The notes beneath the pieces were generated by a model. That model did not search any database and was not told the DNA's origin. It was given only the letters and a program-made list of their open reading frames with translations. A stretch of 34,746 nt of DNA, from the NCBI GenBank assembly GCA_021443825.1, contig JABUTE010000040.1, positions 1 through 34,746 of the forward strand, given 5' to 3'. This document shows, in pieces, positions 188 through 31,860 of this stretch; position 1 is the first letter of the stretch; every line of letters begins with the position of its first letter. This DNA is from Bacillota bacterium. GTDB taxonomy: Bacteria; Bacillota; Clostridia; Peptostreptococcales; Anaerovoracaceae. Both the position numbers and the translations under genes were made by a program.

Positions 188-808
188 TTATTTTGAGTAG
201 AGCTCGACGATCAGGTGCTCAGCAACAGGTGTATCGATCATTGCACGAGTGGGGAGAGAAAGTACCTTTCCTTCCAGCTTCTCGGTGTTGATGGTGACCC
301 ATTCGGGAGTGCTGATGGTCATTTCCTTCATTTCTTTGAACTTGAGAGATGACTGGCTCTTTTCCTTGACTGCGATTACATCGCCGGCCTTGACCAGCTG
401 AGAGGGAATGTCGACCTTCTTGCCGTTAACGGTGAAGTGACCGTGAGTAACCAGCTGTCTTGCTTCCTTTCTGGAGGAAGCAAAGCCCATTCTGAATACG
501 GTGTTGTCAAGTCTGCTCTCCAGCATGATGAGCAGGTTTTCACCGGTGATACCGGGCTTGGCAGCTGCCTTTTCAAAATAGTTTCTGAACTGAGTTTCCT
601 GCAGTCCGTAGAAACGCTTGGTCTTCTGCTTTTCGCGAAGCTGGAGACCATAGTTGGAGTTCTTCTTTCTATCCTGTCCGTGCTGTCCGGGAGCATAAGC
701 TCTCTTCTCCATAGCGCACTTGCTGCTGTAGCAGCGTTCGCCCTTGAGGAACAGCTTGCATCCTTCTCTTCTGCAAAGCTTGCAGGAAGGTCCTGTATAT
801 CTTGCCAT
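188..808 (-). CDS. rpsD: 30S ribosomal protein S4
   Basis: [16 protein letters not shown]...; S4 domain; operon position. Confidence 0.98.
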
Positions 809-827
809 GTTGTTTGTCCTCCCTTAA

Positions 828-1223
828 CTACACTCTTCTTCTCTTCGGCGGTCTGCAGCCATTGTGAGGAATAGGAGTGATATCCTTGATCATAGTAACT
901 GTAAGACCGGCGCTCTGCAGAGCTCTGATAGCAGCTTCTCTGCCGGAACCGGGGCCCTTTACATAAACTTCTACGGTCTTGAGTCCCTGATCGATCGCGC
1001 CCTTGGCAGCTTCTTCAGCAGCCATCTGAGCAGCAAACGGGGTGGACTTTCTGGATCCCTTGAAACCGAGGGAACCGGCGCTGCACCAGGAGATCGCATT
1101 TCCGGAAAGGTCGGTGAGGGTTACCAGGGTGTTGTTGAAGGATGCCTGAATATGTGCCTGACCGGCTTCGATATTCTTGCGTTCTCTCTTCTTCTTGCGT
1201 ACAGTCTTCTTTACTGTTGCCAT
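828..1223 (-). CDS. rpsK: 30S ribosomal protein S11
   Basis: S11 sequence ending [16 protein letters not shown]. Confidence 0.98.
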
Positions 1224-1240
1224 TCTAGCTTACCTCCTTA

Positions 1241-1612
1241 CTAATCCTTCTTCTTGCGGCCGACAGTCTTCTTGGGGCCTTTTCTGGTGCGAGCGTTATT
1301 CTTGGTGTTCTGGCCGCGAACGGGAAGACCTCTTCTGTGGCGAACGCCTCTGAAGCATCCGATCTCCATCAGACGCTTGATATTGAGAGCGGTGTCTCTC
1401 TTCAGATCACCTTCGACCATGTATTCGCTGTCGATGATCTTTCTGATCGCACCTGCTTCATCTTCTGTAAGATCCTTTACTCTGGTATCCGGATTTACGC
1501 CGGCCTTCTCAAGGATGGCCTTTGCAGTGGGCTTTCCGATACCGTAAATGTAGGTAAGTCCGATTTCGACCCTCTTTTCTCTGGGCAAATCGACACCGGC
1601 TATACGAGCCAT
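1241..1612 (-). CDS. rpsM: 30S ribosomal protein S13
   Basis: [26 protein letters not shown]... Confidence 0.98.
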
Positions 1613-1729
1613 AAATTATACCTCCTGATTGTACTGCAACTATAAATTATAATTTGACGTGCCAACCGCGTGAGTGCGCCGGCACACAATACCTATTGGA
1701 AGATGTCTGATCCTGTTGATCTGATCATC

Positions 1730-2076
<347 letters not shown>

Positions 2077-2084
<8 letters not shown>

Positions 2085-2877
2085 GAACAGCGTCCTCCTT
2101 GTTGGAACTCAAATTTGTTTCTTCCGCACCCAGAAGCGTAAGGATCCTGGGCTCGCCTTCGGTGATAACGACGGTGTTTTCGTAATGGGCTGCCCAGGAG
2201 CCATCACAGGTGACGGCTGTCCAGTCGTTGGACAGGACCTTTACATCATAAGCGCCGGTGCAGATCATGGGCTCGATGGCCAGGGTCATACCCGGGGTCA
2301 GGAGCGGACCGCGACCGGCCTTTCCGTAATTGGGGATCTGGGGATCCTCATGAAGATTTCTGCCGACACCGTGGCCCACGAAATCGCGGACGACGGCAAA
2401 GCCTGCGGATTCAACACATGTCTGGATCGCATGGGATACATCTCCGAGGCGGTTGCCCTTTCGGCAGAACTTGAGTCCTTCGAAAAAGCTTTCCTCGGCG
2501 ACCCGGATCAGCCGGGCATGTTCATCGCTGATCGTGCCGACCGGATAGGTCCTTGCGGCATCGGAGTAATAGCCGTTGCAGACGGTTCCCAGATCGACAC
2601 TGACGATATCACCCTCGCGAAGCAGCCGCTTCTTCGAGGGGATGCCGTGAACGACTTCCTCATTGACAGACACGCAGGCAGCGGCGGGAAACCCGCCGTA
2701 GCCCTTGAATGCGGGAAGCATTCCGTGATTGCGAATATAAGCTTCGCACCAATGGTCGATATCCTTTGTGCTGATACCGGGCGCGATGATCGAAGGCAGC
2801 TCGTCGAGCATGGCTGCGGTGACGGCTGCTGCTTTTTTCATTTGCTCGATCTCATGCGCGGATTTGAGCACGATCAT
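2077..2877 (-). CDS. map: Type I methionyl aminopeptidase
   Basis: MetAP motifs ([54 protein letters not shown]). Confidence 0.97.
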
Positions 2878-2879
2878 GG

Positions 2880-3527
2880 TTATTCTCCCAATACTGCACA
2901 GATCGCGTTCAGTACATCCTGTACAGAACCGGCTCCGTCGATGGGCGCCAGCTTACCGCTGCTGCGGTAGTAATCGGTGAGAGGACTTGTCTGAGCCTGA
3001 TAGACTGCAAAACGATTTTTAACGGTCTCTTCCGTATCGTCTGCTCTCTGATAGACTTCGCCGCCGCAGACATCGCAGACGCCCTCGACCTTGGGGGGCA
3101 TGGAAACGACGTGATACGGCTTTCCGCACTTTCTGCAGACTCTTCTTCCGACCATTCGGGGAAGGAGGATAGCTTCATCTACTTCGATATCTATTACTTT
3201 ATCCAGCTCCTGACCGTTCTTTGCCAGATATTCGTCAAAGAACTTTGCCTGGGCGACGGTTCTGGGGAAGCCGTCCAGAAGATAACCGTTCGCGCAGTCG
3301 CTCTTCTGCACTCTGTCTGCCACGACCTCGCATACCAGCTCGTCGGGAACAAGCTGACCGGCTTCCATAATGGAGCTGATCTTTACCCCCAAAGGAGTAC
3401 CTTCCTTGACATTTGCCCGGAAGATATCTCCTGTGGAGATGTGCGGGATGTTATATTTTGTGGAAATTCCTTCGGCCTGGGTGCCCTTTCCGGCGCCCGG
3501 GGGGCCTAATAAAACAACACGCTTCAT
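2880..3527 (-). CDS. adk: Adenylate kinase
   Basis: GPPGAGKGTQ P-loop, LDGFPRT, Cys4 lid (CRKCGKPYH...CDVCGG). Confidence 0.98.
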   Translation of the reverse strand: MKRVVLLGPPGAGKGTQAEGISTKYNIPHISTGDIFRANVKEGTPLGVKISSIMEAGQLVPDELVCEVVADRVQKSDCANGYLLDGFPRTVAQAKFFDEYLAKNGQELDKVIDIEVDEAILLPRMVGRRVCRKCGKPYHVVSMPPKVEGVCDVCGGEVYQRADDTEETVKNRFAVYQAQTSPLTDYYRSSGKLAPIDGAGSVQDVLNAICAVLGE

Positions 3528-3543
3528 TTTCGTACCTGTCCTC

Positions 3544-4827
3544 CTACTTAAGGAATCCGCTGTAGTTGCGCATTACCATCATGGTCTCGATCTGCTTCAT
3601 GGTATCCAGGGCAACGCCGATCGCAATGATAACGGAGGTGCCGCCGAAGCCGATGGACAGGGTGGTAAGCTGCTGCAGAATGGTGGGCAGAGTCGCTACG
3701 ACCGCAAGGAAGAGGGCGCTTACCACATTCAGTCTGCTGCTGACCTTCTGGATATATTCCGCAGTGGATCTGCCGGGACGGATTCCGGGAATGAATCCGC
3801 CGTTGGACTTCATCTGCTCAGCAATTTCAACAGGGTTGAAGGTGATGGCAGCATAGAAGTAGGTGAATCCGATGATGAGCAGGATCTCCAAAACGCCCAT
3901 GATGTAGACACCGGGGTTTCCGGAGGTGCTCAGGTACTTGGTCACAAAGTTTGCGAATCCGGTGTTGGGAGCCATATATGCGATGGTATTGGGCAGCTGC
4001 AGAATGGATACTGCGAAGATGACGGGAATAACGCCTGCCTGATTTACCTTCATGGGGATATGGCTGCTCTGTCCGCCGTAGACCTTGCGGCCGACGACTC
4101 TCTTTGCGTACTGTACGGGGATCTTGCGGGTACCCTCGGTAACGAGGATGATGCCCACGATGATCAGCAGTGCAAAGATCAGGAAGAGCACAACGGAGAT
4201 GATTCCGACGCTGCCGCTTGCGACCTTGCTGACAGTCTTGGAAATGGTGGTGGGGATTCTGGAAACGATACCTGCGAAGATGATCAGCGAGATACCGTTG
4301 CCGATGCCCTTATCGTTGATCCGTTCGCCCAGCCACATCAGGAAGATGGTGCCGGCGACCAGAGTCAGAACGATGACGATCTTGGAAAGGATGCTGTTGT
4401 CAGACAGCACGTTTCCGAACAGACCGAAGGTGTAGCCGATGGCCTGGATCAGAGCCAGACCGACGGTGATGTATCTTGTGAGAGCAGCCATCTTACGTCT
4501 TCCCTCTTCGCCCTGCTTGGTCAGCTCTTCCAGCTTGGGGAAGGCAACTGCCAGCAGCTGCAGAATAATGGAGGATGTGATGTAAGGAGTGATGCTCAGC
4601 GCGAAGATGGTGAAGTTGCTGAAGGATCCTCCGGAGAACAGATCGAACAGACCAAACAGTCCGGCTTCGTTGGAATCGAACATGTTGGTCAGCAGTGCTC
4701 TGTTGATACCGGGGACGGGGATGTTGGAGCCGAGGCGGAAGACTACCAGCATAGCGAAGGTATAGAGAATTTTCTTTCTCATTTCAGGAATCTTCCAGGC
4801 CTGCTTCATAGTCTGCAGCATGCCCAT
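3544..4827 (-). CDS. secY: Preprotein translocase subunit SecY
   Basis: SecY sequence with multiple TM segments, GIRPGRSTAEYI. Confidence 0.98.
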   Translation of the reverse strand: MGMLQTMKQAWKIPEMRKKILYTFAMLVVFRLGSNIPVPGINRALLTNMFDSNEAGLFGLFDLFSGGSFSNFTIFALSITPYITSSIILQLLAVAFPKLEELTKQGEEGRRKMAALTRYITVGLALIQAIGYTFGLFGNVLSDNSILSKIVIVLTLVAGTIFLMWLGERINDKGIGNGISLIIFAGIVSRIPTTISKTVSKVASGSVGIISVVLFLIFALLIIVGIILVTEGTRKIPVQYAKRVVGRKVYGGQSSHIPMKVNQAGVIPVIFAVSILQLPNTIAYMAPNTGFANFVTKYLSTSGNPGVYIMGVLEILLIIGFTYFYAAITFNPVEIAEQMKSNGGFIPGIRPGRSTAEYIQKVSSRLNVVSALFLAVVATLPTILQQLTTLSIGFGGTSVIIAIGVALDTMKQIETMMVMRNYSGFLK

Positions 4828-5267
4828 TAGATCACCTCAGCCTTTCCTCCTGCTGCAACGATCTTGTCGATCGCGCTGTTGCTGAACTTCTGTGCCTGTA
4901 CGGTCAGCTTCTTGGTCAGCTCGCCGTTTCCGAGAATCTTGATGCCGTCGGATACGCCCTTTGCAAGGCCCAGATCCATCATCATTTCGGGAGTAACGGT
5001 GGTTCCGTCTTCAAAGACATTGAGTGCATCTACATTGACGCCAACGTAGGTAACGCTCCAGTGATTGGTGAATCCTCTCTTGGGGATTCTTCTGTAGAGA
5101 GGCATCTGGCCGCCTTCGAAACCGAGACGGAGCTTGCCGCCGCTTCTGGACTTCTGACCGTTCATACCACGGCCGGCGGTAGTACCATTTCCGGTACCGG
5201 TACCTCTGCCCTTTCTCTTGCCCACGAAAGTGGAGCCTTCGGGCTTCTTTAATTCATGAAGTTTCAT
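4827..5267 (-). CDS. rplO: 50S ribosomal protein L15
   Basis: [44 protein letters not shown]. Confidence 0.98.
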
Positions 5268-5282
5268 TGATTCGTCCTCCCT

Positions 5283-5456
5283 TTAGCACTCTTCAACCTT
5301 TAAGAGGTGAGAAACCTTCTTTACAGCTCCCCAGGTCTGAGGAGTGTCGGGCAGCTCTACAGTGTGATGGAGCTTTCTCAGTCCGAGAGCTTCAACAACC
5401 TTCTTCTGATAAGGAGTAGCGCCGATCGTGCTCTTTACTAATGTGATCTTAAGCAT
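5283..5456 (-). CDS. rpmD: 50S ribosomal protein L30 (57 aa)
   Basis: Not in ORF track; reads MLKITLVKSTIGATPYQKKVVEALGLRKLHHTVELPDTPQTWGAVKKVSHLLKVEEC*. Confidence 0.97.
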   Translation of the reverse strand: MLKITLVKSTIGATPYQKKVVEALGLRKLHHTVELPDTPQTWGAVKKVSHLLKVEEC

Positions 5457-5468
5457 TTATTTCTCCTC

Positions 5469-5969
5469 CTATCCCAGAATCTCTTCCTTGCTCAGTCCTC
5501 TCAGAGCTGCGACCTGTTCAACAGTTCTCAGCTGCTTCAGGCCTGCGAGAGTTGCATGCGCAACGTTTCCTGCATTGCTGGAGCCCAGGGACTTTGCTCT
5601 TACGTCAGTAACACCGGCAAATTCCAGCACGGTACGTGCAGAACCACCGGCAATAACTCCGGTACCGGGAGCGGCGGGCATGATGAGAACCTTGCCTGCG
5701 CCGAAGACACCGAGGGTCTTGTGGGGGATGGTCGTTCCTACGAGGGGAACGGTGATCAGGGACTTCTTTGCATCCTCGGTAGCCTTTCTGACGGCTTCGG
5801 GGATTTCAACGGACTTGCCGAGACCCAGGCCTACATGACCTGCATTGTCACCTACAACGACGGTGACGCTGAATCTGGAGTTCTTACCACCCTTAACAAC
5901 CTTGGTAACTCTTCTGATGTTAATGATGGATTCCTTCAGATCGAGCTTGGTTACGTCAATATTACGCAT
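5469..5969 (-). CDS. rpsE: 30S ribosomal protein S5
   Basis: S5 sequence ([23 protein letters not shown]...). Confidence 0.98.
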
Positions 5970-5984
5970 TCAGATAACTCCTCC

Positions 5985-6359
5985 TTAGAAATTCAGGCCG
6001 GCAGCTCTTGCGCCATCAGCCAGTTCCTGTACTCTTCCGTGATAGAGGTATCCGCCTCTGTCGAAGCATACAGTTTCAACTCCAGCTTCCTTAGCTCTCT
6101 TGCCGACCAGCTCGCCGACCAGCTTGGCAGCAGCCTTGTTGCCGCCGTAAGAGACCTGTTCCTTGATCTCCTTGTCAAGGGTGGATGCTGCACAGATGGT
6201 CTTGCCGTTTACATCGTCAATGACCTGTGCGTAGATGTTCTTGGAGCTTCTGAATACACACAGTCTGGGCATCTCGGGAGTTCCGAAAACGCTCTTTCTT
6301 ACTCTGGCATGTCTGGCCAGACGATTATCATTTCTGCTTCTGTTAGCCATTTCGTTCAC
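5985..6359 (-). CDS. rplR: 50S ribosomal protein L18
   Basis: L18 motifs ([43 protein letters not shown]). Confidence 0.98.
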
Positions 6360-6367
6360 TCCTTCCT

Positions 6368-6907
6368 TTACTTACCGGTCTTGCCTTCTTTTCTGCGTAC
6401 ATGTTCACCTGCGTAGCGAATACCCTTGCCCTTATAGGGTTCAGGCTTTCTCCAGGAGCGAATGACTGCAGCGTAGTTGCCGACGAGAGCCTTATCAGCG
6501 CCCTTGACAACGATTTCGGTAGCAGAGGTGCAGGCAGTTTCAATGCCTTCGGGGTCAGTCATGATAACAGGGTGAGAGTAACCAAGCTGCATAACCAGGT
6601 CCTTGCCCTTCTTTTCGGCCTTGTAACCAACGCCGATCATTTCCAGCTTCTTTTCGTAACCCTGGGTTACGCCGATTACCATGTTGTTGACCAGGGTTCT
6701 GGACAGACCGTACTTCATTTCTGCGTCACGGCTGCTTTCTGCGGTGGTCAGGGTAACGACACCGTTTTCCTGTTCAATTTTGATGAGGGGGCTGATCTGC
6801 TCGCTGAGGGTACCCTTGGGTCCCTTTACGGTAACCAGGTTCTTGTCACTAACGGTGACTTCGACGCCGGCAGGAACAGTCACAGGCAGTTTTCCTATTC
6901 TGGACAT
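6368..6907 (-). CDS. rplF: 50S ribosomal protein L6
   Basis: [17 protein letters not shown]...[14 protein letters not shown]. Confidence 0.98.
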
Positions 6908-6925
6908 TTGTTTCTCCTTTCCTAA

Positions 6926-7324
6926 TTACCAAACGTAGCAGATAACTTCGCCGCCAACGTTCAGCTTGCGAGCTTCCTTATCGGTGATAAGGCCGTTGGA
7001 GGTGGAGATGATAGCAATACCCAGGCCGCCCAGGACCTTGGGAACTTCATCCGCTTTTACATAGACCTTGAGTCCGGGCTTGGATACTCTCTGAATACCG
7101 GTGATGACTCTGGTCTTATCGCCTGCATACTTCATCTGGATCTTGATGGTGTTCTGAACGTCACCTTCAACGATCTCGAAGCTCTTGATATAGCCTTCCT
7201 TCAGAAGGATTTCAGCGATATTCTTCTTGAGCTTGGATGCGGGGATTTCAACACTTGCATGACCTGCAATGTTGGCATTTCTGATTCTTGTAAGCATATC
7301 TGCTACAGGATCTGTCATAGTCAT
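6926..7324 (-). CDS. rpsH: 30S ribosomal protein S8
   Basis: [18 protein letters not shown]...GGEVICYVW. Confidence 0.98.
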
Positions 7325-7349
7325 TGTGAGTATGCCTCCTTCCTTCGAA

Positions 7350-7535
7350 TTACCAGCTTGCCTTCTTTACGCCGGGGATCTGTCCCTTGTAAGCAAGCTC
7401 TCTGAAACAAATACGGCAGATACCGTACTTTCTTAAATATGCATGGGGTCTTCCGCAAATCTTGCAGCGGTTGTAAGCCTGAGTGGAATGCTTGGGAGCT
7501 CTCTGCTGCTTAACCTTAAGAGATGTCTTAGCCAT
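7350..7535 (-). CDS. rpsN: 30S ribosomal protein S14 type Z (zinc-binding)
   Basis: 61 aa with CKICGRPH...[22 protein letters not shown]. Confidence 0.98.
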
Positions 7536-7544
7536 TGTGACCTC

Positions 7545-8087
7545 CTACTTCTCAAACGGCATGCCGAGCATTTCGAGAAGAGCCTTTGCTTCTTCGTCGG
7601 TCTTAGCCGTGGTGGTGAAAATAATGTCCATACCTCTGACCTTTTCGACCTGATCGTAAACGATTTCGGGGAAGATCAGCTGTTCCTTTACGCCCATGGA
7701 GTAGTTGCCGCGGCCGTCGAAGGAATTCTGCTTAACGCCCTTGAAGTCTCTTACTCTGGGCAGTGCGATGTTGAACAGCTTATCAGCGAATTCATACATG
7801 TTGTCGCCGCGCAGGGTTACCTTGCAGCCGACAGCCATGCCTTCTCTGATCTTGAAGTTCGCGATGGACTTTCTGGACTTGGTGACTACGGGAGCCTGTC
7901 CGGAGATCATGGCCATTTCCTTAACAGCCAGTTCCTGCAGCTTGGCGTTGTCTTTGCAATCGCCGAAGCCCATGTTGAGGGTGATCTTCTCAAGCTTGGG
8001 AACCATCATAACGTTCTCGTACTGAAACTTTTCCTTGAGTGCGGGGAAAACTTCAGCGGTGTACTTTTCTTTCAGTCTTGCCGACAT
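7545..8087 (-). CDS. rplE: 50S ribosomal protein L5
   Basis: L5 motifs ([23 protein letters not shown]). Confidence 0.98.
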
Positions 8088-8105
8088 TGTGTTTTCTCCT
8101 TTCTA

Positions 8106-8411
8106 TTAGTCAATGACCTGACCGGACTTCTTGGAAACTCTCTTCTTTACGCCGTTTTCTACGACATAACCGATCTTGGTTGCAGCCTTGGCCTTGGTGT
8201 CGTAGTACATAACGTTGGAAACATGGATGGGTCCTTCGACCTTGCGGATCTCGGCAGGCTGATTCTGCTGTGCCTTCGCATGCTTGGTCTGAATGTTTAC
8301 GCCTTCTACATAAACGCGCTCGTTCTTGGTGTCAACACGGAGAACCTTTCCCTTCATGCCCTTGTCTTTGCCGGCAATTACCAGGACGGTATCATCTTTT
8401 TTGATTTTCAT
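8106..8411 (-). CDS. rplX: 50S ribosomal protein L24
   Basis: KOW domain MKIKKDDTVLVIAGKDKGMKGKVLRVD. Confidence 0.98.
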   Translation of the reverse strand: MKIKKDDTVLVIAGKDKGMKGKVLRVDTKNERVYVEGVNIQTKHAKAQQNQPAEIRKVEGPIHVSNVMYYDTKAKAATKIGYVVENGVKKRVSKKSGQVID

Positions 8412-8424
8412 TAATCTGAACCTC

Positions 8425-8793
8425 CTACAGAACTTCAGGAGCCAGGGAAACGATCTTCATGAATCCCTTGTCTCTCAGCTCTCTTGCTACCGGTCCAAAG
8501 ATACGGGTTCCGATAGGTGTCTTGTCATCCTTAATAATAACAGCAGCATTCTGATCGAACTTTACATAGCTTCCGTCCATTCTTCTTGCGCCGCTTGCGG
8601 TTCTTACGATGACAGCCTTAACGACGTCACCCTTCTTTACCTGACCGCCGGGGGTTGCATCCTTGACGGCACATACGATGATGTCGCCGATGTTTGCATA
8701 CTTACGACCGGTGCCGCCGAGAATACGGATGCAAAGGAGTTCCTTTGCGCCGGAATTGTCAGCAACCTTCAGTCTTGTTTCATTCTGAATCAT
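8425..8793 (-). CDS. rplN: 50S ribosomal protein L14
   Basis: [27 protein letters not shown]...[12 protein letters not shown]. Confidence 0.98.
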
Positions 8794-8804
8794 CTGGTGC
8801 CTCC

Positions 8805-9065
8805 TTACTTGACCTTCTCGACGATTTCAACAAGTCTCCATCTGCAGTTCTTGGACAGAGGTCTTGTTTCCATGATCTTTACCTTATCGCCGATCTGGCA
8901 CTCGTTGTTTTCATCGTGTGCCATGAACTTCTTGGTGATCTTTTCAGACTTACCGTAAAGAGAATGGCGACGGGATTCTTCGATTGCAACGACGATCGTC
9001 TTGTTCATCTTGTTGCTAACTACAAAACCAACCTTGGTCTTTCTGAGATTTCTTTCATCAGACAT
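8805..9065 (-). CDS. rpsQ: 30S ribosomal protein S17
   Basis: [21 protein letters not shown]...[23 protein letters not shown]. Confidence 0.98.
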
Positions 9066-9084
9066 TTCTGCATCCTCCTTTCGA

Positions 9085-9288
9085 TTACTTTTCTGCTGCC
9101 TTGAGCTCGTTCTCTCTCATGACAGTCTTGATTCTTGCGATGTCTTTCTTAACTTCTTTCATCTTGAGCGAGTTCTCAAGCTGGCCGGTAACATGCTGGA
9201 AGCGGAGGTTGAACAGCTCCTTCTTCAGCTTCAGTTCCTCAGCTGCAAGCTCGGTCTGGCTCATCTTCTTGATTGCTTCAATTTTCAT
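9085..9288 (-). CDS. rpmC: 50S ribosomal protein L29
   Basis: [39 protein letters not shown]. Confidence 0.97.
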
Positions 9289-9707
9289 TATGCTTCTTCC
9301 TTCTTAACGAACTTGCACTTTACGGGGAGCTTGTGGGAAGCGAGACGCATAGCTTCTCTTGCTGCTTCTTCGGAAACTCCGCCGATCTCAAACATAACTC
9401 TGCCGGGCTTTACAACTGCTACCCAATATTCGGGAGAACCTTTACCGGAACCCATACGAACTTCAGCAGGCTTCTTGGTTACAGACTTGTGAGGGAAGAT
9501 CTTGATGTAGACCTCGCCGCCTCTCTTGATATATCTGGTCATTGCGATACGAGCAGCTTCGATCTGGTTAGCAGTGATCCAACCGCATTCCATGGACTGG
9601 AGACCATAGGTACCGTAGGTAACGGTGTTACCCTTGGTTGCAATGCCCTTCATTCTGCCTCTGTGAAGTCTTCTGTACTTCACGCGCTTTGGCATTAACA
9701 TTGGCAA
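9288..9707 (-). CDS. rplP: 50S ribosomal protein L16
   Basis: [29 protein letters not shown]... Confidence 0.98.
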
Positions 9708-9721
9708 ATTCCTCCTTCTTG

Positions 9722-10603
9722 TTACTCTTCTGCGGGTGCAGCTTCTTCAACTGCAGGAGCAGCTTCAACTACTTCGGGTTCGGCAGCCTTAACGGGGCGC
9801 TTGCGAGGATTCTCGAACTTCTTGACTTCTTTTTCCTCGAATCTGCCGCCTCTGCGCTGATCGCGATCGGTTCTTTCACGGCGTTCTCTTCTTTCGCCGT
9901 TTCTGCGATCGCCGCGCTTGCCGCGTTCTCTCTTGGTTTCAGTCTCTTCGGGAATGGCAGGAACCAGATCCTTGCCCAAAACTTCGCCGACGTTGACCCA
10001 AACCTTTACACCGATTCTTCCGTACTGGGTATCCGCTTCGGTGAAACCGTAGTCGATATTGGCACGGAGAGTGTGAAGGGGAACATTACCTTCGCTGTAC
10101 TTTTCGCTTCTTGCGATTTCAGCACCGCCTACACGGCCGCTGATGACGACCTTGATACCCTTGGCACCGGCCTTCATGGCTCTCTGGATCGCCTGCTTCA
10201 TGGCTCTTCTGAAAGAGGTTCTCTTTTCCAGAGCCTGTGCAATGCTTTCTGCAGTCAGCTGAGCATCGGCGTCGGGGCGCTTCAGCTCTACGATGTTGAG
10301 GGAGATCTGCTTGCCGGTCAGCTTTTCGATCTCGCTCTTCAGCTGATCGATGCCGTCGCCGCCGCGTCCGATGACCATACCGGGCTTTGCGGTGAGCACG
10401 CTGATGCGCATGGTGTTCTCTGCAGCTCTTTCAATGACGATCTTGCTGACGCCGGCTGCATAGAGCTTCTTCTTGATGTATTCTCTGACCTTGTTGTCTT
10501 CTACCAGATAATCAGAGAAGTTCTTCTTATTAGCGTACCACTTGGAATCCCAATCCTGGATAACGCCGACTCTGAATCCATGGGGACTTACTTTCTGACC
10601 CAT
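9722..10603 (-). CDS. rpsC: 30S ribosomal protein S3 with a long charged C-terminal extension
   Basis: [26 protein letters not shown] domain; 293 aa, ending in an R/E-rich then A/E/P-rich tail. Confidence 0.97.
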
Positions 10604-10618
10604 TTTATTTCCTCCTGA

Positions 10619-10951
10619 TTATCTTTCCTTAAGTACAACACCGATGTGAGAGCTTCTCTTGAGAATTCTGCCTGCTCTGCCCTGAGAACCGGCTCTCCAA
10701 CGCTTCATGGTGGGGCCCTGGTTTACATAGATCTCAGCGACATACAGCTTGTCGAAATCCATATCGAAGTTGTTTTCTGCGTTTGCGCGGGCAGAGATGA
10801 CAACCTTTTCAACAAGTTCAGCGCTCTTTCCGGGGGTGAACTTTAAGATGGTAAGTGCTTCCTGAAGGCTCTTGCCTCTGACCAGGTCAGCTACAGGCTT
10901 GAGCTTGGAGGGAGACATTCTTACGTATTTAGCAATTGCTCTTGCTTCCAT
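10619..10951 (-). CDS. rplV: 50S ribosomal protein L22
   Basis: MEARAIAKYVRMSPSKLKPVADLVRGKS... Confidence 0.98.
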   Translation of the reverse strand: MEARAIAKYVRMSPSKLKPVADLVRGKSLQEALTILKFTPGKSAELVEKVVISARANAENNFDMDFDKLYVAEIYVNQGPTMKRWRAGSQGRAGRILKRSSHIGVVLKER

Positions 10952-10970
10952 TTTTTATCTCCTTCCTTTC

Positions 10971-11243
10971 TTACTTTACCTTGGAGGAACCGGCGTGGCC
11001 TCTGAAGGTTCTGGTGGGTGCAAACTCGCCCAGCTTATGACCGACCATATCTTCGGTTACATATACGGGGATGTGCTTGCGGCCGTCATATACGGCAATG
11101 GTGTGTCCGATCATCTGAGGGAAAATGGTAGAAGATCTGGACCAGGTCTTTACGACCTTCTTATCGTTGGCTGCGTTCATTGCTTCGATTGCCTTCAGAA
11201 GCTTTTCGTTTACGAACGGGCCCTTCTTTAATGATCTGCTCAT
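10971..11243 (-). CDS. rpsS: 30S ribosomal protein S19
   Basis: [16 protein letters not shown]...[18 protein letters not shown]. Confidence 0.98.
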
Positions 11244-11260
11244 TTAGTTATCCTCCCTGA

Positions 11261-12094
11261 TTACTTCTGATTTCTTCTCTTAACAATGTACTTGTCGGAA
11301 GCCTTGTTCTTCTTTCTGGTCTTGTAACCGAGAGCAGGCTTGCCCCAAGGAGTAACAGGTCCGGGACGACCAACGGGTGCCTTACCTTCACCACCGCCGT
11401 GGGGGTGATCATTGGGGTTCATTACAGAACCGCGAACGGTAGGACGGATGCCCATGTGTCTGGTGCGGCCGGCTTTACCGATGTTGACCAGCTCGTGATC
11501 GCCGTTGCCGACTTCACCGATGGTCGCTCTGCAAAGCATGCTGATCTTGCGAACTTCGCCGGACGGAAGTCTTACCTGTGCATAGTTGCCTTCCTTTGCC
11601 ATGAGCTGTGCAGCGTTACCTGCGGCTCTGCAAAGCTGAGCACCCTTGCCGACCTTGAGCTCTACATTGTGGATCAGAGTACCGAGAGGGATATTTGCAA
11701 GGGGAAGAGCGTTTCCAACCTTGATATCTGCGTCTGCACCGCTGTACAGTACATCGCCGACCTGCAGCCCGTTGGGAGCGATGATGTAGGTCTTTTCGCC
11801 GTCTGCGTAGCAGAGCAGTGCGATGTTTGCGCTTCTGTTGGGATCGTATTCGATGGTCTTAACAGTTGCGGGGATGCCATCCTTATTTCTCTTGAAATCG
11901 ATGACTCTGTACTTGCGTCTGTTGCCGCCGCCTCTGTGGCGAACGGTGATGGCGCCGCGGTTATTTCTTCCTGCGTTCTTCTTCAGAGAAACGGTCAGGG
12001 ACTTTTCCGGAGTGGAAGAAGTGATCTCTTCGAAGGTGGAGACGGTCATTCCTCTCAGACCCGGAGTAGTCGGTTTATACTTTTTGATTCCCAT
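11261..12094 (-). CDS. rplB: 50S ribosomal protein L2
   Basis: [25 protein letters not shown]...[22 protein letters not shown]. Confidence 0.98.
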
Positions 12095-12110
12095 TTTAAT
12101 CTCCTCCTAA

Positions 12111-12401
12111 TTACATGCCTTCGAAGAATTCGATGGTCTTGCTGGTTTCAGAGATGAATACAACTGCCTTCTTGTAAGCAGGAGTTCTGCCTACGTTGAC
12201 GCCCTGTCTCTTTACCTTGCCGTCGTAGTTAACGGTGTTGACTCTTACTACGTCTACGCCGAATGCTTCTTCAACAGCTGCCTTGATCTGAGGCTTGGTA
12301 GCCTTAACGTCTACCTTGAAGGTGTACTTTCTTTCCTGTGCGTCGTCCATGCTCTTTTCGGAGATCACGGGGCACTTGATAATGTCATAAGCGGTCTTCA
12401 T
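12111..12401 (-). CDS. rplW: 50S ribosomal protein L23
   Basis: L23 sequence; operon position. Confidence 0.97.
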   Translation of the reverse strand: MKTAYDIIKCPVISEKSMDDAQERKYTFKVDVKATKPQIKAAVEEAFGVDVVRVNTVNYDGKVKRQGVNVGRTPAYKKAVVFISETSKTIEFFEGM

Positions 12402-13024
12402 TATGCGTATACCTCCTCAAGCTTCTTAGCAGCATCCTGAGTCAGGATGAGGCTGGTATGGTTGATGATCTCATATACGTTGACCTGACCGACCCAGGTT
12501 ACCTGGACGCCGGGGATGTTTGCTGCGCTGAGCATAACGTTTTCGTCAACGTGGTCGGTAACGATCAGAGCCTTCTTGGCGGCGCCGATGTTAGCCAGGA
12601 CCTTGATCATTTCCTTTGTCTTTGCGGTCTCGAAGGACAGGTTGTCGAGAACGATCATTTCGTTGTCGGCCAGCTTGGAAGAGAGCATGGACAGCATTGC
12701 CAGTCTCTTTACCTTCTTGGGGATCGCATATCTGTAGCTTCTGGGCTTGGGTGCGAATGCTACGCCGCCGCCTACCTGAGTAGGATCAACAGTGGAGCCC
12801 TGTCTGTGACGACCGGTACCCTTCTGCCGGAAGGGCTTTCTGCCGCCTCCTCTGACGTCGCCTCTGGTCTTTGCGGACTGGGTGCCCTGTCTCTGATTTG
12901 CTAAATAATTCTTAACATATGCATGTACTGCGAATTCATTGGGCTCGATCGCGAAAACGGCATCGTTCAGTTCGATGGTTCCGGCTTCTGCGCCGAGCAT
13001 GTTCAGCATTTTTAATTCTGCCAT
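12401..13024 (-). CDS. rplD: 50S ribosomal protein L4
   Basis: QGTQSAKTRGDVRGGGRKPFRQKGTGRHRQGS. Confidence 0.98.
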   Translation of the reverse strand: MAELKMLNMLGAEAGTIELNDAVFAIEPNEFAVHAYVKNYLANQRQGTQSAKTRGDVRGGGRKPFRQKGTGRHRQGSTVDPTQVGGGVAFAPKPRSYRYAIPKKVKRLAMLSMLSSKLADNEMIVLDNLSFETAKTKEMIKVLANIGAAKKALIVTDHVDENVMLSAANIPGVQVTWVGQVNVYEIINHTSLILTQDAAKKLEEVYA

Positions 13025-25890: not shown

Positions 25891-28500
25891 TTACCTTGGC
25901 TTTTGGGAGTACCATCCGGGGCGGTGGGAAGTTGCCCTGCTGCCTCTTGGCGTAAAGGAAAACTTCAAGCCATATGTACCAAGCTCATTGATAAGGGATT
26001 TGCACTCTGACTCTCCACCGATGATCCAAAGGCTTCCTCCATTATTCCGCTTATCGACGTATTCAAATCCGGATGCTTCAATTACTTTTATTACATCAAC
26101 CTCCTGCGCAGGTACTGCATGTGCGTCAGTTGGGAGATCCCATGTTGCATCACTAACATATTCATAGACTTCAATTATCGGAGTGCCTTTCGCTGCAAAG
26201 TAACTATTGCGATGGTCATCCTCTACCTTTAAGTACCAGCCGCTTTTACGCCCTAATGCCCTTACATTTTCTGCAAATGAAAGAACGCATCCGAATTTCC
26301 TGCATTCTCTGACAAAATCGTTCATAACCTCATCCGAACGAGTTCCTTCAAACCAGATAGCGCCTCCCCTATCGACGTTATCGATCGGCAATAGATTGTA
26401 GTCATTTATCAATTCAAAGAACTTTTGATAATCCGGTTCGGGCAGGGGCGTCCGCACAAAAGAAATATACGGGGCATTCGGGATGAGTGTATATGTTCCT
26501 CTTTCATCTGTTGCTGTCTGATTAGCCAGTAATTCCCGCATCGTTATTGAGCCCAGATATGGATGTGATCCCCTAACTATTTTATAGATCTTTCGAAAAC
26601 CGCAAGCCTTATTCACGCAATAGTACGAATTTTCATATTCCCGCACCATATTACCACACAAAGGACATCTCCCTACGCTATTCGCATTCTTTATACCGGT
26701 ATTTCCTTTTTCAAGAGCATATGCAACAAGCTGTTCTGTTAAGTCATTGATCCCCCTTCTGAATGTCCTTGGATTACCAATTCCTTTGCTGATCTTATTC
26801 AGCGTCGCTTCCCATTGTCCGGTCATATCCGGTCTTGTTAAATACTCCGGAAGGATGGAGATCAGTTTGACACCGTATTCCGTAGGCTGCAGCGTGCGCC
26901 CTTTCCGCACCACCATTTCTTTTGTAATCAGAGTTTCAATTGTGGCCGCTCTGGTCGCAGGAGTACCAATGCCATACTCTGTTTCCTGTACGTCGGCATC
27001 CTCTTCCGCATACGTTCCTGCATGCTCCATTGCAAGCAATAAAGATGCATCGGTATGGTGCGGCGGCGGGGTCGTTTGATCATGCCGTACTCTAAGGTTC
27101 GTAACGTTATAGAATTCCCCTGCTCTACATCTTTTCTGCGGGGTATTTTCTAACCTGCGGCTTTTATCAACAGCACTCCATCCCTCAACCACAACTATAT
27201 CTCCGCCGGCGATAAAAGAATTTTCGCCTAACTGCAGCTCATATTCCTGATGGATCACGACTGCATCCGGAAGGAACATACCCACAAAACGATTCGCAAT
27301 AAGACCATAGACAAGCCTTTCATACTTTGTCCATGTTTCTATTTGTTTTGCCTCGCCCGTCGGAATGATCGCATGATGATCGGATACACCTTTGTTATTT
27401 ATAAAACGACCAAACAGATCTTTTTGACTGGCCTTCGCTTCTTCTACCCCTGCGGACCATTCCGTTTGTTCCAGACTCTCTAACCGCTTTTGTAAGGTTG
27501 ACGCCAAGTCTGAAGACAAAAACCTCGAATCGGTCCTGGGATATGTAATTGCTTTATATTTTTCGTACAGAGACTGCGCCACATCCAGCGTTGTCTTCGA
27601 TGGGATCCCGTATAACCGATTGGCATCTCTTTGTAAAGATGTCAGGTCGTATAATAATTGAGCCGGCACCGATTCTTCTGTCTCTTCAGCGGTTTTGACG
27701 ACCGCCTTCCCATTTTGATTCTTTAAAATAAAGACTTCTAATGCTTTCTTTGTCTCTTCTGTCGCAGGAAATCTCGTGGGATGTACAGCAGTCTCAGCCA
27801 ATTGTTCATTGAGCATTTTTGCATTGATTCCGGAAAAATCAGCCGCAAGCTCATAATATTCCTCTGGCACAAAGTTTCGGCGTTCAAGTGCCCTTTGTAC
27901 AAGGATCGCCAGTGTGGGAGACTGCACTCTGCCTACAGAGAGTCTCCTCATATCGTTGACGATCGCATAAGCCCGACTTCCGTTCATACCGATCAGCCAG
28001 TCGGCTTCTGCCCTGCATCTGGCGCTTTCGTACAGATCATCGTAATCAGAAGCAGGATTCAGGTTTTCAAAACCTTTTTTGATGGCACTAAAAGTCAGCG
28101 ATGAGATCCAAAGACGTTCTACCGGTTTCGTGCACCCGGCCATCTGATAGATATAACGAAAGATCAATTCGCCTTCTCTTCCGGCATCTGTCGCGCAGAC
28201 GATCCTGTCGACCTCCGGGCTATTCATCAGATCTTTTACGATCTCAAACTGTTTTTTTCCTGACTCTATTGGCTTCAGGAAAATCTCATCAGGAATGATC
28301 GGAAGTGTCGATATCGACCATTCCTGATATGCCGGATCCAATTCATCCGGATAGCATAATGTTACCAAATGACCAATTGCCCATGTGACGATATCTGTAT
28401 CGCCGATCTGGCAGCCTGCTCCCTTTTCACGACAGCCAAGAACTTTTGCAATATCTCTGCCTACAGCAGGCTTTTCTGCAACGATAAGTCTTTTTCCCAT
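25891..28500 (-). CDS. topB: DNA topoisomerase III (type IA) with C-terminal zinc ribbon and tandem accessory repeats
   Basis: Toprim MGKRLIVAEKPAVGRDIAKVLG, SVGRVQSPTLAILVQR, catalytic ITYPRTDSRFL, CPLCG...C...C; GGAGG RBS. Confidence 0.95.
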   Translation of the reverse strand: MGKRLIVAEKPAVGRDIAKVLGCREKGAGCQIGDTDIVTWAIGHLVTLCYPDELDPAYQEWSISTLPIIPDEIFLKPIESGKKQFEIVKDLMNSPEVDRIVCATDAGREGELIFRYIYQMAGCTKPVERLWISSLTFSAIKKGFENLNPASDYDDLYESARCRAEADWLIGMNGSRAYAIVNDMRRLSVGRVQSPTLAILVQRALERRNFVPEEYYELAADFSGINAKMLNEQLAETAVHPTRFPATEETKKALEVFILKNQNGKAVVKTAEETEESVPAQLLYDLTSLQRDANRLYGIPSKTTLDVAQSLYEKYKAITYPRTDSRFLSSDLASTLQKRLESLEQTEWSAGVEEAKASQKDLFGRFINNKGVSDHHAIIPTGEAKQIETWTKYERLVYGLIANRFVGMFLPDAVVIHQEYELQLGENSFIAGGDIVVVEGWSAVDKSRRLENTPQKRCRAGEFYNVTNLRVRHDQTTPPPHHTDASLLLAMEHAGTYAEEDADVQETEYGIGTPATRAATIETLITKEMVVRKGRTLQPTEYGVKLISILPEYLTRPDMTGQWEATLNKISKGIGNPRTFRRGINDLTEQLVAYALEKGNTGIKNANSVGRCPLCGNMVREYENSYYCVNKACGFRKIYKIVRGSHPYLGSITMRELLANQTATDERGTYTLIPNAPYISFVRTPLPEPDYQKFFELINDYNLLPIDNVDRGGAIWFEGTRSDEVMNDFVRECRKFGCVLSFAENVRALGRKSGWYLKVEDDHRNSYFAAKGTPIIEVYEYVSDATWDLPTDAHAVPAQEVDVIKVIEASGFEYVDKRNNGGSLWIIGGESECKSLINELGTYGLKFSFTPRGSRATSHRPGWYSQKPR

Positions 28501-28536: not shown

Positions 28537-31500
28537 TTATACCAGAAAGCCATCATTCTTTTTTTCCAGCCCATCCAGAAGCTTCTTCAGATTCTTCGGG
28601 GTGATGTGGACTTTGTAATTTCTGCCTTCGGGGGTGGGATGCAGAACCGGATATTGAGCTTTCGTCTGCAGAATAAAATGCTGCTCGATGCACCACTCGA
28701 TGATATACACGAGATCCGCCTTGCTCAACCGACACAGGCTTCCATATTCTGCAATCTCGTTAAGCTTTGCGTTGCTAATCCGGTTGTTTTTGGAACCTCT
28801 AAGCACATCGGCCAGCATATGCACGCCATAGTAATGCGTTTTACTGACATGCTCCAGCCCCTGCAGCACGGTTTGCACTACATCATTCAGCGCCAGGCCC
28901 TTATAGACATATTCCTTTTTGATTTCTGCCTTTTCGATTTCAACGACGGGCTCCGAATCCCTTGCCAAGACAGGCTTTTTTGGCGCCTGCGCCGGATACG
29001 TGATCGTCTTCGGCTTTGGCTTTCGTGTTTCGGCCTCTTCCTGCGAATCTTCCAGCCCGAACATCATGTTGTATTCTGCCATACTGATCCGCTTGAAGCA
29101 GCCGGTCCCGTTCCTTCGGTAGTTCGTACAGCCAAGTAAATATCCTCCGTTGCCTTTGCCTGGTTTGACGATCAGATATCCATCCCGGCATTTGTCGCAT
29201 TTCATGATCGAAAGTTTTCCGGCCTTCGGTTCGTTAGTCATAAAGCCGCAGATCTCAGGTTCGTTGGTGCAGATATAAAGGCGAAGCCCGAATGCATTCT
29301 TATACCGATACTGCATGGGATATCCGCAGATCGGACAGGACTTTCTGCCCAATCGGGGCTGAGGGTCTTCTTCGTTCCACTCTCCTCGCAGCACTACATT
29401 CTTGTGGTCTCGCTTGAGCTCCAGTAAAAACTCCGACGGATTCTGCTCCGGTGCGATAAAGAACACCCTGTTTTTCGTACGGGTCATGGCCACATAGAAC
29501 AGACGCCTCTCTTCCGCGTAGTCGATGGATCGGTCTCCCTTGATTACAAACGCCAGCACAGGATCGTCCTCGATCTTCGACGGAAAACCATATGTCTCGT
29601 TTCTGCCGTTGACAACGATCACATTGTCATATCCCAGTCCTTTTGAAGCATGAGCCGTCATAAAGGTGATATCCAACTGCGGATAATTTACCGAACGCAG
29701 CTTTCCCCCGCGATTCTTGAATTCAAACAGTCCTGACCGTTCCAACTTATCGCCGTCAAAGCCAAAGCGGCCAAGAAGAAGGATCTTCGATCCGTCAGGC
29801 TTACCCTCCGCCTTGTTATAGACAACGATCTGCTCCAGCGCCGTCTCGACCGCATGGGCCATGGCATAATTGGCACCGCTGCGCCGGTCTGCATTCTGTT
29901 CCTTGCGAGAATTGTCATAGGTGTAGATGATCACCGGATCCTCCAGATGCTTCGGAGATCGCAGCTCTTTGCGGATCTGCGCCGTGTTTTTCTGGATAAA
30001 GCCTCCTGCGATGTCGATCACTTCCTGCGAATTGCGATAGGTGTTTTCGATTTTAAGAAGCTTTGCATAGCCCATCGATTCCGCAAAGTGGGTAAAGAGG
30101 CTGATATCCGACCCGCTGAAGGCATAGATCGACTGCCAGTCATCACCCACCGCCATGATCTTCGCATCAGTCACCTCCGAAAGGGCCTTTGTCAGATCGA
30201 ACCGCTGTCTCGAGATATCCTGATACTCATCGACGATGATGTATTTAAAATCCAGCTTCTGCTTCATCTCCTGAACTTCATGAAGCACTCTGGCCGACTC
30301 ATTGATCATGTCTTCAAAATCGACCGCGTGGTTCGTCTGCAGATACTGCTGATACTCAAGATAGCACTCGCGGCAGATCTCAAGAAACAGCTGGGTGCGC
30401 ACATTCTGGGTGGAACGATACATGCGGCTGAATTCTTCGACCGTATACCCATTCGTCTTGAAATTGGTGATAAATCGGCAGATCAGATTTACCAGCTTTC
30501 GGATATACCGGTTTTCTTCGTCGGAAACAAGCTTTTTGAGCACCTCTTCGTTTGGCCGGGGCTTAAGAACAAATCCATGCCTTTCCAGTTCTTCCTTCAG
30601 ATGCACCGTCAGCGCCCGCCCGTCGTTATACGCCGAGTAGGTGTAGAGCAGTGTCGTTCCGTGCTGCTTGTGCTGGCGGATCTTATCATCAATAGCCGAT
30701 CGATATGCCTGCAGTTCTTCCTGAGTAAACCGGTTGCTGCGACCATCCTCCGTGATGCCAAAATGTTCGATATAAGCAGTCTTTTCGCCCTGCCGGATCA
30801 GAAAATCGGGCGTGTAGGGCTTTTTCGCATACTGAATATCGTAGCGATAGAGGGGCTCGTACTCGTAGTCCAGATTATTCAGGTAGAGGAAGTTGGCGAT
30901 CTCCACCTCCTGGGCTGAACGCATATATTCGCCGTGAATGGTGATCTTCTTTTGGCTTCTGCGGTCGATAATCTGATGCTGATATTCATCGAAATCGCTC
31001 TTCATGGTTGAATAATTAGCTTTCGCCAGTTTATTCAACAGTTCCCTGATGTCACTGCCCTCATAGGGCTCATCGAAATAGGAAGCAAAGAACAGGATCA
31101 GTTTTTCGACCATGCTCTCATTTTTCAGGATAGAATGCTTAAAGTAATCTTGTACCACAAAGTAGAGCTTGCTTTGTTCTACGATATTCAACTTTTCTGG
31201 ATCCTGTTTGCGCAGAATGGCATTGCCTGTGGAATGGAATGTAGCGATAGGGCAATCCAACTGCAGGTCTTTGTTGATCTTATCTCTGAGCTCGCCCACC
31301 GCCTTATTGGTAAACGTGATGATGAGGATCTGCTTCGGGTCGATGCCCTGCTGCTCGACCAAATATTTTACTTTTGCCGCCACCGTAGTGGTCTTTCCTG
31401 CACCGGCACCGGCAACCACCAGGCAGTAATCTTCGTCATTGAGAACGACCCTGCGCTGATCGTCATCCAGCTGAATGTCCGGATCCACATCCTTGAGAAT

Positions 31501-31860
31501 ATCATCCAGATACGACTTCTTTTCGACAAACGAATTCGTGATGTAGGACTCGTTGTGAACATCTGCCAAAGCTGCCATGCTTTCGTAATCGTGAAGCGCT
31601 TTTTCTACCCGTTCCTGTGCAAACCGATTCTTTTTGCAGTAATCGGCCAAAAGATCGCTCTTAACAAGCACCTGAAAAAAATCGATCACCCCAGCATAGT
31701 CTTCAGCCAGCTTCGAATACTCGCTTTTTGCGATATATCGGTTCTCCGAAAGCAACTCGCTCAGGCGCAACGCAAAATCAGCCAGTGCCTTGTATTCGGC
31801 AGAAACTGGCTGCACAGGAGATGTTGTTTTCTTTTTGAACAGGGAAGTAAAAATGCTCAT
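28537..31860 (-). CDS. UvrD/Rep-type superfamily 1 helicase with nuclease-like insertion, topoisomerase-type zinc ribbons and RQC-like C-terminus
   Basis: Walker A VVAGAGAGKTTT, Walker B IIVDEYQDIS, VGDDWQSIYAFSGSD, FMTAHASKGLGYDNVIVVNG, LFYVAMTRTKNRVFF; two Cys4 clusters; C-terminal HYYGVHMLADVLRGSKNNRI...YPVLHPTPEG; start trimmed to MSIFTSLF. Confidence 0.92.
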   Translation of the reverse strand: MSIFTSLFKKKTTSPVQPVSAEYKALADFALRLSELLSENRYIAKSEYSKLAEDYAGVIDFFQVLVKSDLLADYCKKNRFAQERVEKALHDYESMAALADVHNESYITNSFVEKKSYLDDILKDVDPDIQLDDDQRRVVLNDEDYCLVVAGAGAGKTTTVAAKVKYLVEQQGIDPKQILIITFTNKAVGELRDKINKDLQLDCPIATFHSTGNAILRKQDPEKLNIVEQSKLYFVVQDYFKHSILKNESMVEKLILFFASYFDEPYEGSDIRELLNKLAKANYSTMKSDFDEYQHQIIDRRSQKKITIHGEYMRSAQEVEIANFLYLNNLDYEYEPLYRYDIQYAKKPYTPDFLIRQGEKTAYIEHFGITEDGRSNRFTQEELQAYRSAIDDKIRQHKQHGTTLLYTYSAYNDGRALTVHLKEELERHGFVLKPRPNEEVLKKLVSDEENRYIRKLVNLICRFITNFKTNGYTVEEFSRMYRSTQNVRTQLFLEICRECYLEYQQYLQTNHAVDFEDMINESARVLHEVQEMKQKLDFKYIIVDEYQDISRQRFDLTKALSEVTDAKIMAVGDDWQSIYAFSGSDISLFTHFAESMGYAKLLKIENTYRNSQEVIDIAGGFIQKNTAQIRKELRSPKHLEDPVIIYTYDNSRKEQNADRRSGANYAMAHAVETALEQIVVYNKAEGKPDGSKILLLGRFGFDGDKLERSGLFEFKNRGGKLRSVNYPQLDITFMTAHASKGLGYDNVIVVNGRNETYGFPSKIEDDPVLAFVIKGDRSIDYAEERRLFYVAMTRTKNRVFFIAPEQNPSEFLLELKRDHKNVVLRGEWNEEDPQPRLGRKSCPICGYPMQYRYKNAFGLRLYICTNEPEICGFMTNEPKAGKLSIMKCDKCRDGYLIVKPGKGNGGYLLGCTNYRRNGTGCFKRISMAEYNMMFGLEDSQEEAETRKPKPKTITYPAQAPKKPVLARDSEPVVEIEKAEIKKEYVYKGLALNDVVQTVLQGLEHVSKTHYYGVHMLADVLRGSKNNRISNAKLNEIAEYGSLCRLSKADLVYIIEWCIEQHFILQTKAQYPVLHPTPEGRNYKVHITPKNLKKLLDGLEKKNDGFLV

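Follow-up and report, generated by a model that had tools for sequence, protein, structure and literature searches.

How a UvrD-type motor comes to carry a domain that has been called unique to RecQ in a review (PMC4212688), and what the resulting protein might do, is the question raised by one gene of the window, i.e. the whole stretch of 34,746 nucleotides that was analysed. In the preliminary description, this gene had been read as a composite. All four of its domain calls were upheld on testing, and it is confirmed that the product is a real SF1A motor into which a nuclease-like domain is inserted and which also bears two Cys4 clusters and a genuine RQC. The gene and the landmarks of its motor are the following.

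28537..31860, minus strand: complete ORF of 1,107 aa (P0001), SF1A helicase with RQC tail (ORF and Pfam)
31390..31410, minus strand: motif I (Walker A), GAGAGKT, residues 151-157
30211..30234, minus strand: motif II (Walker B), VDEYQDIS, residues 543-550
29635..29658, minus strand: motif V, TAHASKGL, residues 735-742
29473..29493, minus strand: motif VI, VAMTRTK, residues 790-796

The start of the ORF, an ATG at position 31860, agrees with the N-termini of relatives; an alternative TTG start gives a longer reading, to 31929. The complete series of SF1A motifs that had been claimed was indeed observed. In addition to those listed above, ITFTNKA (residue 181), TFHSTG (207), QSIYAFSG (576) and TYRNS (607) are all intact, and Pfam detected UvrD-helicase (3e-53) and UvrD_C (2.1e-14). 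By its motifs I-VI and its UvrD_N and UvrD_C domains, the protein belongs to the UvrD/Rep/PcrA-like SF1A helicases. The same Pfam analysis showed neither DEAD nor Helicase_C, the motor being of the UvrD type and not an SF2 DEAD/DEAH motor. Among the NCBIfam models, the motor most resembled DNA helicase IV (PRK11054, 3.4e-87), but its score of 293.5 bits against a curated cut-off of 543 places it outside helicase IV (HelD) proper. Furthermore, inspection of the E. coli HelD sequence revealed no nuclease-like insertion, no zinc ribbons and no RQC, and the insertion is thus not a feature of helicase IV proteins in general.

The C-terminal region had been described as a RecQ-type winged helix.

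28564..28905, minus strand: RQC winged-helix domain, residues 986-1099 (Pfam PF09382, model and Foldseek, family tree)

In agreement with this description, PF09382 was detected at residues 995-1082 with an E-value of 3.2e-13 (49.9 bits, cut-off 23). When modelled with 51 relatives, the domain gave a confident winged helix (pLDDT 92.6). The best 18 matches of this model in the PDB, searched by Foldseek, were all RecQ-family chains (probability 1.00), including CsRecQ, WRN, E. coli RecQ, DrRecQ and BLM, and the sole matches of the sequence profile among PDB sequences were the RecQ proteins of C. sakazakii and E. coli. Two stretches are conserved among relatives: the loop that follows RQC helix 2, VLRGSKNNRI, with the pattern L-x-G-x4-(R/K)-I, and that of the wing, T-K-x-x-Y-P-V-L-H. 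In WRN, the duplex end is held by the alpha2-alpha3 loop and the wing (PMC4212688). Neither of the outcomes set beforehand as speaking against the description was encountered: the C-terminus did match PF09382 and was modelled as a winged helix, and the insertion, discussed below, did adopt a restriction-endonuclease-like fold. The NCBIfam model RQC-minor-1 (NF041107) matched the window RQC at 6.7e-9, with a score of 35.6 for a cut-off of 115. Like the window helicase, RQC-minor-1 proteins carry an RQC outside RecQ; unlike it, they have no SF1 motor attached. RQC-like domains were also seen on the non-helicase proteins L129 (201 aa) and L128 (548 aa), the latter being followed by a second uncharacterised ORF.

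Between the motor and the RQC domain lie the two Cys4 clusters, which had been likened to topoisomerase zinc ribbons.

29248..29337, minus strand: Cys4 cluster 1, C842/C845/C864/C871
29098..29199, minus strand: Cys4 cluster 2, C888/C891/C911/C921, topoisomerase-type zinc ribbon

Both clusters are clean, and the likeness was upheld as the weakest of the four domain calls, Zn_ribbon_Top1 being detected below the Pfam cut-off (5.3e-4). The relative L022 came just short of the threshold (1.4e-7; 31.6 for 32 bits). RecQ_Zn_bind (PF16124) gave no match in the window helicase at E<=1, whereas the same search found it in RecQ proteins. Thus, the window helicase shares with bacterial RecQ the RQC domain, the order motor, zinc, RQC and optional HRDC, and the 3'-5' polarity expected of its motor; it differs by its SF1A motor and topoisomerase-like zinc clusters, where RecQ has an SF2 DEAH motor and RecQ_Zn_bind.

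The closest published precedent is mycobacterial UvrD2, which has a Cys4 region and, as in the window helicase, combines an SF1A motor with a C-terminal RecQ accessory domain. This accessory domain is HRDC in UvrD2 and RQC in the window helicase, where Pfam found no HRDC. UvrD2 was described as an SF1 helicase with HRDC, and M. tuberculosis as devoid of RecQ (PMC2734928). In a literature search with most subscription journals outside its reach, no description of RQC on an SF1 helicase was found; the architecture is probably listed automatically in domain databases.

That RQC on an SF1 motor is an unusual fusion had been proposed from the sequence of this one gene. When 84,980 species genomes were scanned, 198 stretches proved related, and 80 of these were taken for analysis. 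RQC was present in 57 rows of the tree, the window included. The fusion therefore characterizes a real family, with more than 50 independent RQC-bearing relatives; as some of these come from isolate genomes, an assembly chimera was ruled out. The family is nevertheless rare and patchy: full-length SF1-RQC genes were found in about 3 of 60 genomes of the taxonomic family and 2 of 148 of the class, and, apart from the window's own, in none of 399 genomes of the phylum at SF1-type scores. In another group, for the most part from Bacteroidales, the proteins have about 940 aa and stop behind the zinc ribbons. L073, L080 and L082 carry HRDC in place of RQC, and the SF1 helicase of G003 (L138:8025-11645) bears two RQC stretches, one after the other.

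The motor tree was compatible with one RQC-bearing clade and several independent losses of RQC; having been built by a quick method with long outgroup branches, it leaves both gain and loss possible at the base. In the RQC tree, the SF1 and RecQ domains were separated by a 96/97 branch, which rules out recent copying of RQC from a neighbouring RecQ. A single SF1 RQC clade was not rejected (AU p 0.41), the few misplaced rows being long-branch ones. These trees fit a reading in which the SF1 RQCs would form one lineage apart from the RecQ RQCs, with several later losses. As it was lost several times, RQC is not essential to the motor.

A RecQ gene lies directly downstream of the helicase in L024, L025, L036 and L044, with gaps of 6, 17, -47 and 20 bp. 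In L032 (positions 1713-7706, a single MAG), one ORF of 1,997 aa comprises SF1 motor, zinc, RQC and a complete RecQ with its own DEAD, zinc, RQC and HRDC, so that two motors of different superfamilies stand in one chain. Of the 74 loci that could be assessed, 5 thus have RecQ as next gene or in the same ORF, and these are spread over four branches of the tree; about 0.05 would be expected by a rough estimate from two recQ per 3,000 genes. These RecQ proteins, adjacent or fused, group as one RecQ subclade in the RQC tree; A. aminovalerica and the L025 genome each encode a canonical RecQ elsewhere as well. At the family cut-off, no RecQ was detected in G591, G594 and G596 (E. oxidoreducens, Blautia sp. 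P3087 and the L041 genome, which is G594), and the SF1 protein is the sole RQC protein of all three. The window's own genome also encodes an ordinary RecQ (L001, G000:C38); its RQC is very divergent and forms the longest branch of the RQC tree.

Furthermore, a partner gene of about 185 aa, without Pfam match, is located directly downstream of the helicase in ten loci (e.g. L041:11273-11824 and L003:3323-3910), often overlapping it by about 10 bp. The C-terminal half of this partner recurs in the tails of RecQ proteins (L024, L025, L044, L126) and is fused in the SF1 protein L022; therefore, by Rosetta-stone logic, SF1-RQC, the partner module and RecQ are tied together. Taken with the HRDC-bearing relatives and with topB, described next, this recurrent link goes beyond what the preliminary description had seen, and the evolutionary coupling of the SF1-RQC family to RecQ is established. 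The same coupling, together with the replacement of RQC by HRDC, is left unexplained if the protein is regarded as an ordinary accessory UvrD-like repair helicase whose RQC would only anchor it to duplex DNA in a general way and would imply nothing RecQ-like. The repeated loss of RQC from a motor that was kept, and the occurrence of RQC-type domains on small non-helicase proteins (L129, L128 and RQC-minor-1), agree with that reading, which we consider quite improbable.

In the window, the gene that follows the helicase on the same strand, 36 bp after its stop, encodes a topoisomerase.

25891..28500, minus strand: topB, DNA topoisomerase III, 869 aa, possible functional partner (PRK07726, 3.2e-188; adjacency)

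The last 230 or so residues of TopB, beyond the topoisomerase domain (window 25891-26590), have no Pfam match. In L041, whose genome is without detectable RecQ, topB is upstream of the helicase. This adjacency was observed in 2 of 74 loci, the window and L041 (p about 0.005, uncorrected); topB was absent near the helicase in G034, G003 and G185, and a conserved helicase-topB operon is unsupported beyond the two loci. Since the pairing of RecQ with topoisomerase III is a classic one, the adjacency is suggestive of a functional link.

The remaining neighbourhood bears on the main rival to the explanation that we favour, namely that the gene is a mobile accessory of defence islands and that its product, a helicase for defence or genome conflict, would attack foreign DNA during replication or recombination, with RQC and the nuclease-like domain sensing phage forks. 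The patchy distribution of the gene suits such a role, as do several neighbours: a TOTE-type primase-helicase-PLD protein 3 bp after the SF1-RQC gene (L018:11385-14399), type IV restriction-like genes (L019 and its cluster in L026, L031 and L033), GmrSD (L051), a Schlafen-type helicase (L078), an AAA_13 ATPase (L024), HNH (L028) and Fic (L037). PADLOC also reported similarity to GajB and RTasHel; however, its matches, those to GajB models included, cover the generic UvrD motor only. Among the neighbours that were identified, none resembled GajA, the partner of GajB in Gabija. No fixed defence operon was found, as the neighbours vary from locus to locus while RecQ and the 185-aa partner are recurrent. 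In G034 and G003, the neighbours read from the sequence are glmM/glmS-like and ATP-synthase-like genes. As for the window, positions 188-13024 hold a ribosomal-protein cluster with SecY, adenylate kinase and methionine aminopeptidase, which identifies the window as core chromosome; with ribosomal-protein and housekeeping genes making up the remainder, a mobile-element setting is unsupported. We regard a defence role as rather unlikely.

The last of the four domains is inserted between motifs Ib and II of the motor.

30571..30924, minus strand: T7-endonuclease-I-like PD-(D/E)XK insertion in motor subdomain 1B, residues about 313-430 (model, PDB matches, profile)

A PD-(D/E)XK-like fold had been suspected here, and the model of the insertion (pLDDT 86.9) bore this out: its secondary structure, in the order a-b-b-b-a-b-a, contains the a-b-b-b-a-b core, and its top PDB matches were mostly PD-(D/E)XK proteins (Bax1, R2 and cap-snatching endonucleases, RecU, Hjc, McrC). 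The E-values of single matches are marginal (1.2e-3 in the PDB, 1.1e-5 in a viral library) and the fold class is consistent. When the sequence profile of the insertion was compared with PDB sequences, T7 endonuclease I alone was found (E 0.0012-0.67), and Pfam Phage_endo_I (PF05367) was detected in 46 of 54 members (best 1.6e-5), the window protein itself falling below the cut-off. This apparent kinship with T7 endonuclease I, a Holliday-junction resolvase of the same fold class, is new relative to the preliminary description. In the profile alignment, E20, D55 and E65 of T7 endonuclease I correspond to E318, D352 and E365, whereas the catalytic K67 is matched by F367 in the insertion, which moreover sits within a helicase. 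PDB 2pfj, one of the profile matches, carries Ala at position 67.

The complete E, D, ExK active site of T7 endonuclease I is thus absent from all 54 sequences. The insertion had been called possibly degenerate, which is fair as a possibility: the canonical lysine is replaced by Phe throughout, and the acidic triad and the adjacent His are invariant. E318, D352, E365, H366 and K393 are unchanged in the 54 sequences, an outlier of 29% identity included. Loss of nuclease activity may be one possibility only, since His366 beside the triad resembles the Vsr/EDxHD nucleases. If His366 in this style, or Lys393, replaced the missing ExK lysine, the protein would be an active helicase-nuclease cutting branched DNA. 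This invariance, and the presence of VSR-type homing endonucleases and DUF2726 among the viral structural neighbours, argue for cleavage; the Phe found in every member at the K67 position argues against it, and we hold it to be unlikely. Since endonuclease I retains its docking on junctions when catalysis is abolished by D55A (PMC9547003), a docking role of the insertion is plausible.

The presence and conservation of all four parts, the motor, the zinc clusters, the insertion resembling T7 endonuclease I and the RQC, have been shown. On balance we favour a 3'-to-5' SF1A (UvrD/Rep/helicase-IV-like) helicase that has been remodelled to deal with branched DNA, either alongside RecQ or in its stead. 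The motor, as an SF1A enzyme, would translocate 3'-5' on single-stranded DNA. The insertion would dock on four-way or flap junctions; with Phe at the place of the catalytic Lys, it would more probably bind them than cut them. RQC and the zinc ribbons would grip the duplex arms and help to open the fork, as in RecQ. Its substrates, whether RecQ is also present or is absent and replaced by it, would be intermediates of recombination or of stalled forks, which could be finished by a type IA topoisomerase, in the window TopB. Against this helicase for branched DNA, it must be considered that RQC was lost several times and is not essential to the motor, that RecQ adjoins the gene in a minority of loci and topB in two, being absent near the helicase of G034, G003 and G185, that the window genome also has an ordinary RecQ, and that a rare, patchy gene with many defence-type neighbours is compatible with a defence role.

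A more speculative and, to us, doubtful extension would be a separately evolved SF1-based counterpart of RecQ-TopB. A UvrD-type motor would have acquired the C-terminal toolkit of RecQ (RQC, HRDC), and a cleavage-impaired junction-resolvase fold would serve as Holliday-junction sensor. In gut Clostridia, some of which would use it in place of RecQ, this counterpart would dissolve or remodel the junctions formed in recombination, either in concert with TopB or as half of a twin helicase of SF1 and SF2 (L032). Independently of this extension, a stable RQC module on an SF1 motor offers a natural test of what RQC contributes apart from the SF2 core. As sister proteins have HRDC in its place, and one species has a full RecQ joined behind it, questions of the grafting type on RecQ substrate choice become open to direct test. 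The SF1-RQC protein is also a candidate for RecQ function in Clostridia without RecQ, and L032 provides a two-helicase (SF1 and SF2) polypeptide.

Some minor observations were made on individual loci. In G185 (L140:8583-11669), the N-terminus of the helicase ORF reads like an IS256-type transposase, reflecting either an insertion in the gene or a misassembly. L009, a MAG labelled Alphaproteobacteria, encodes a helicase nearly identical to the Clostridia ones and is probably a binning error. Finally, a Myb/SANT-like helix-turn-helix of about 50 aa is common to the C-termini of SF1-RQC proteins (L038, L058, L060, L022) and of neighbouring RecQ proteins.
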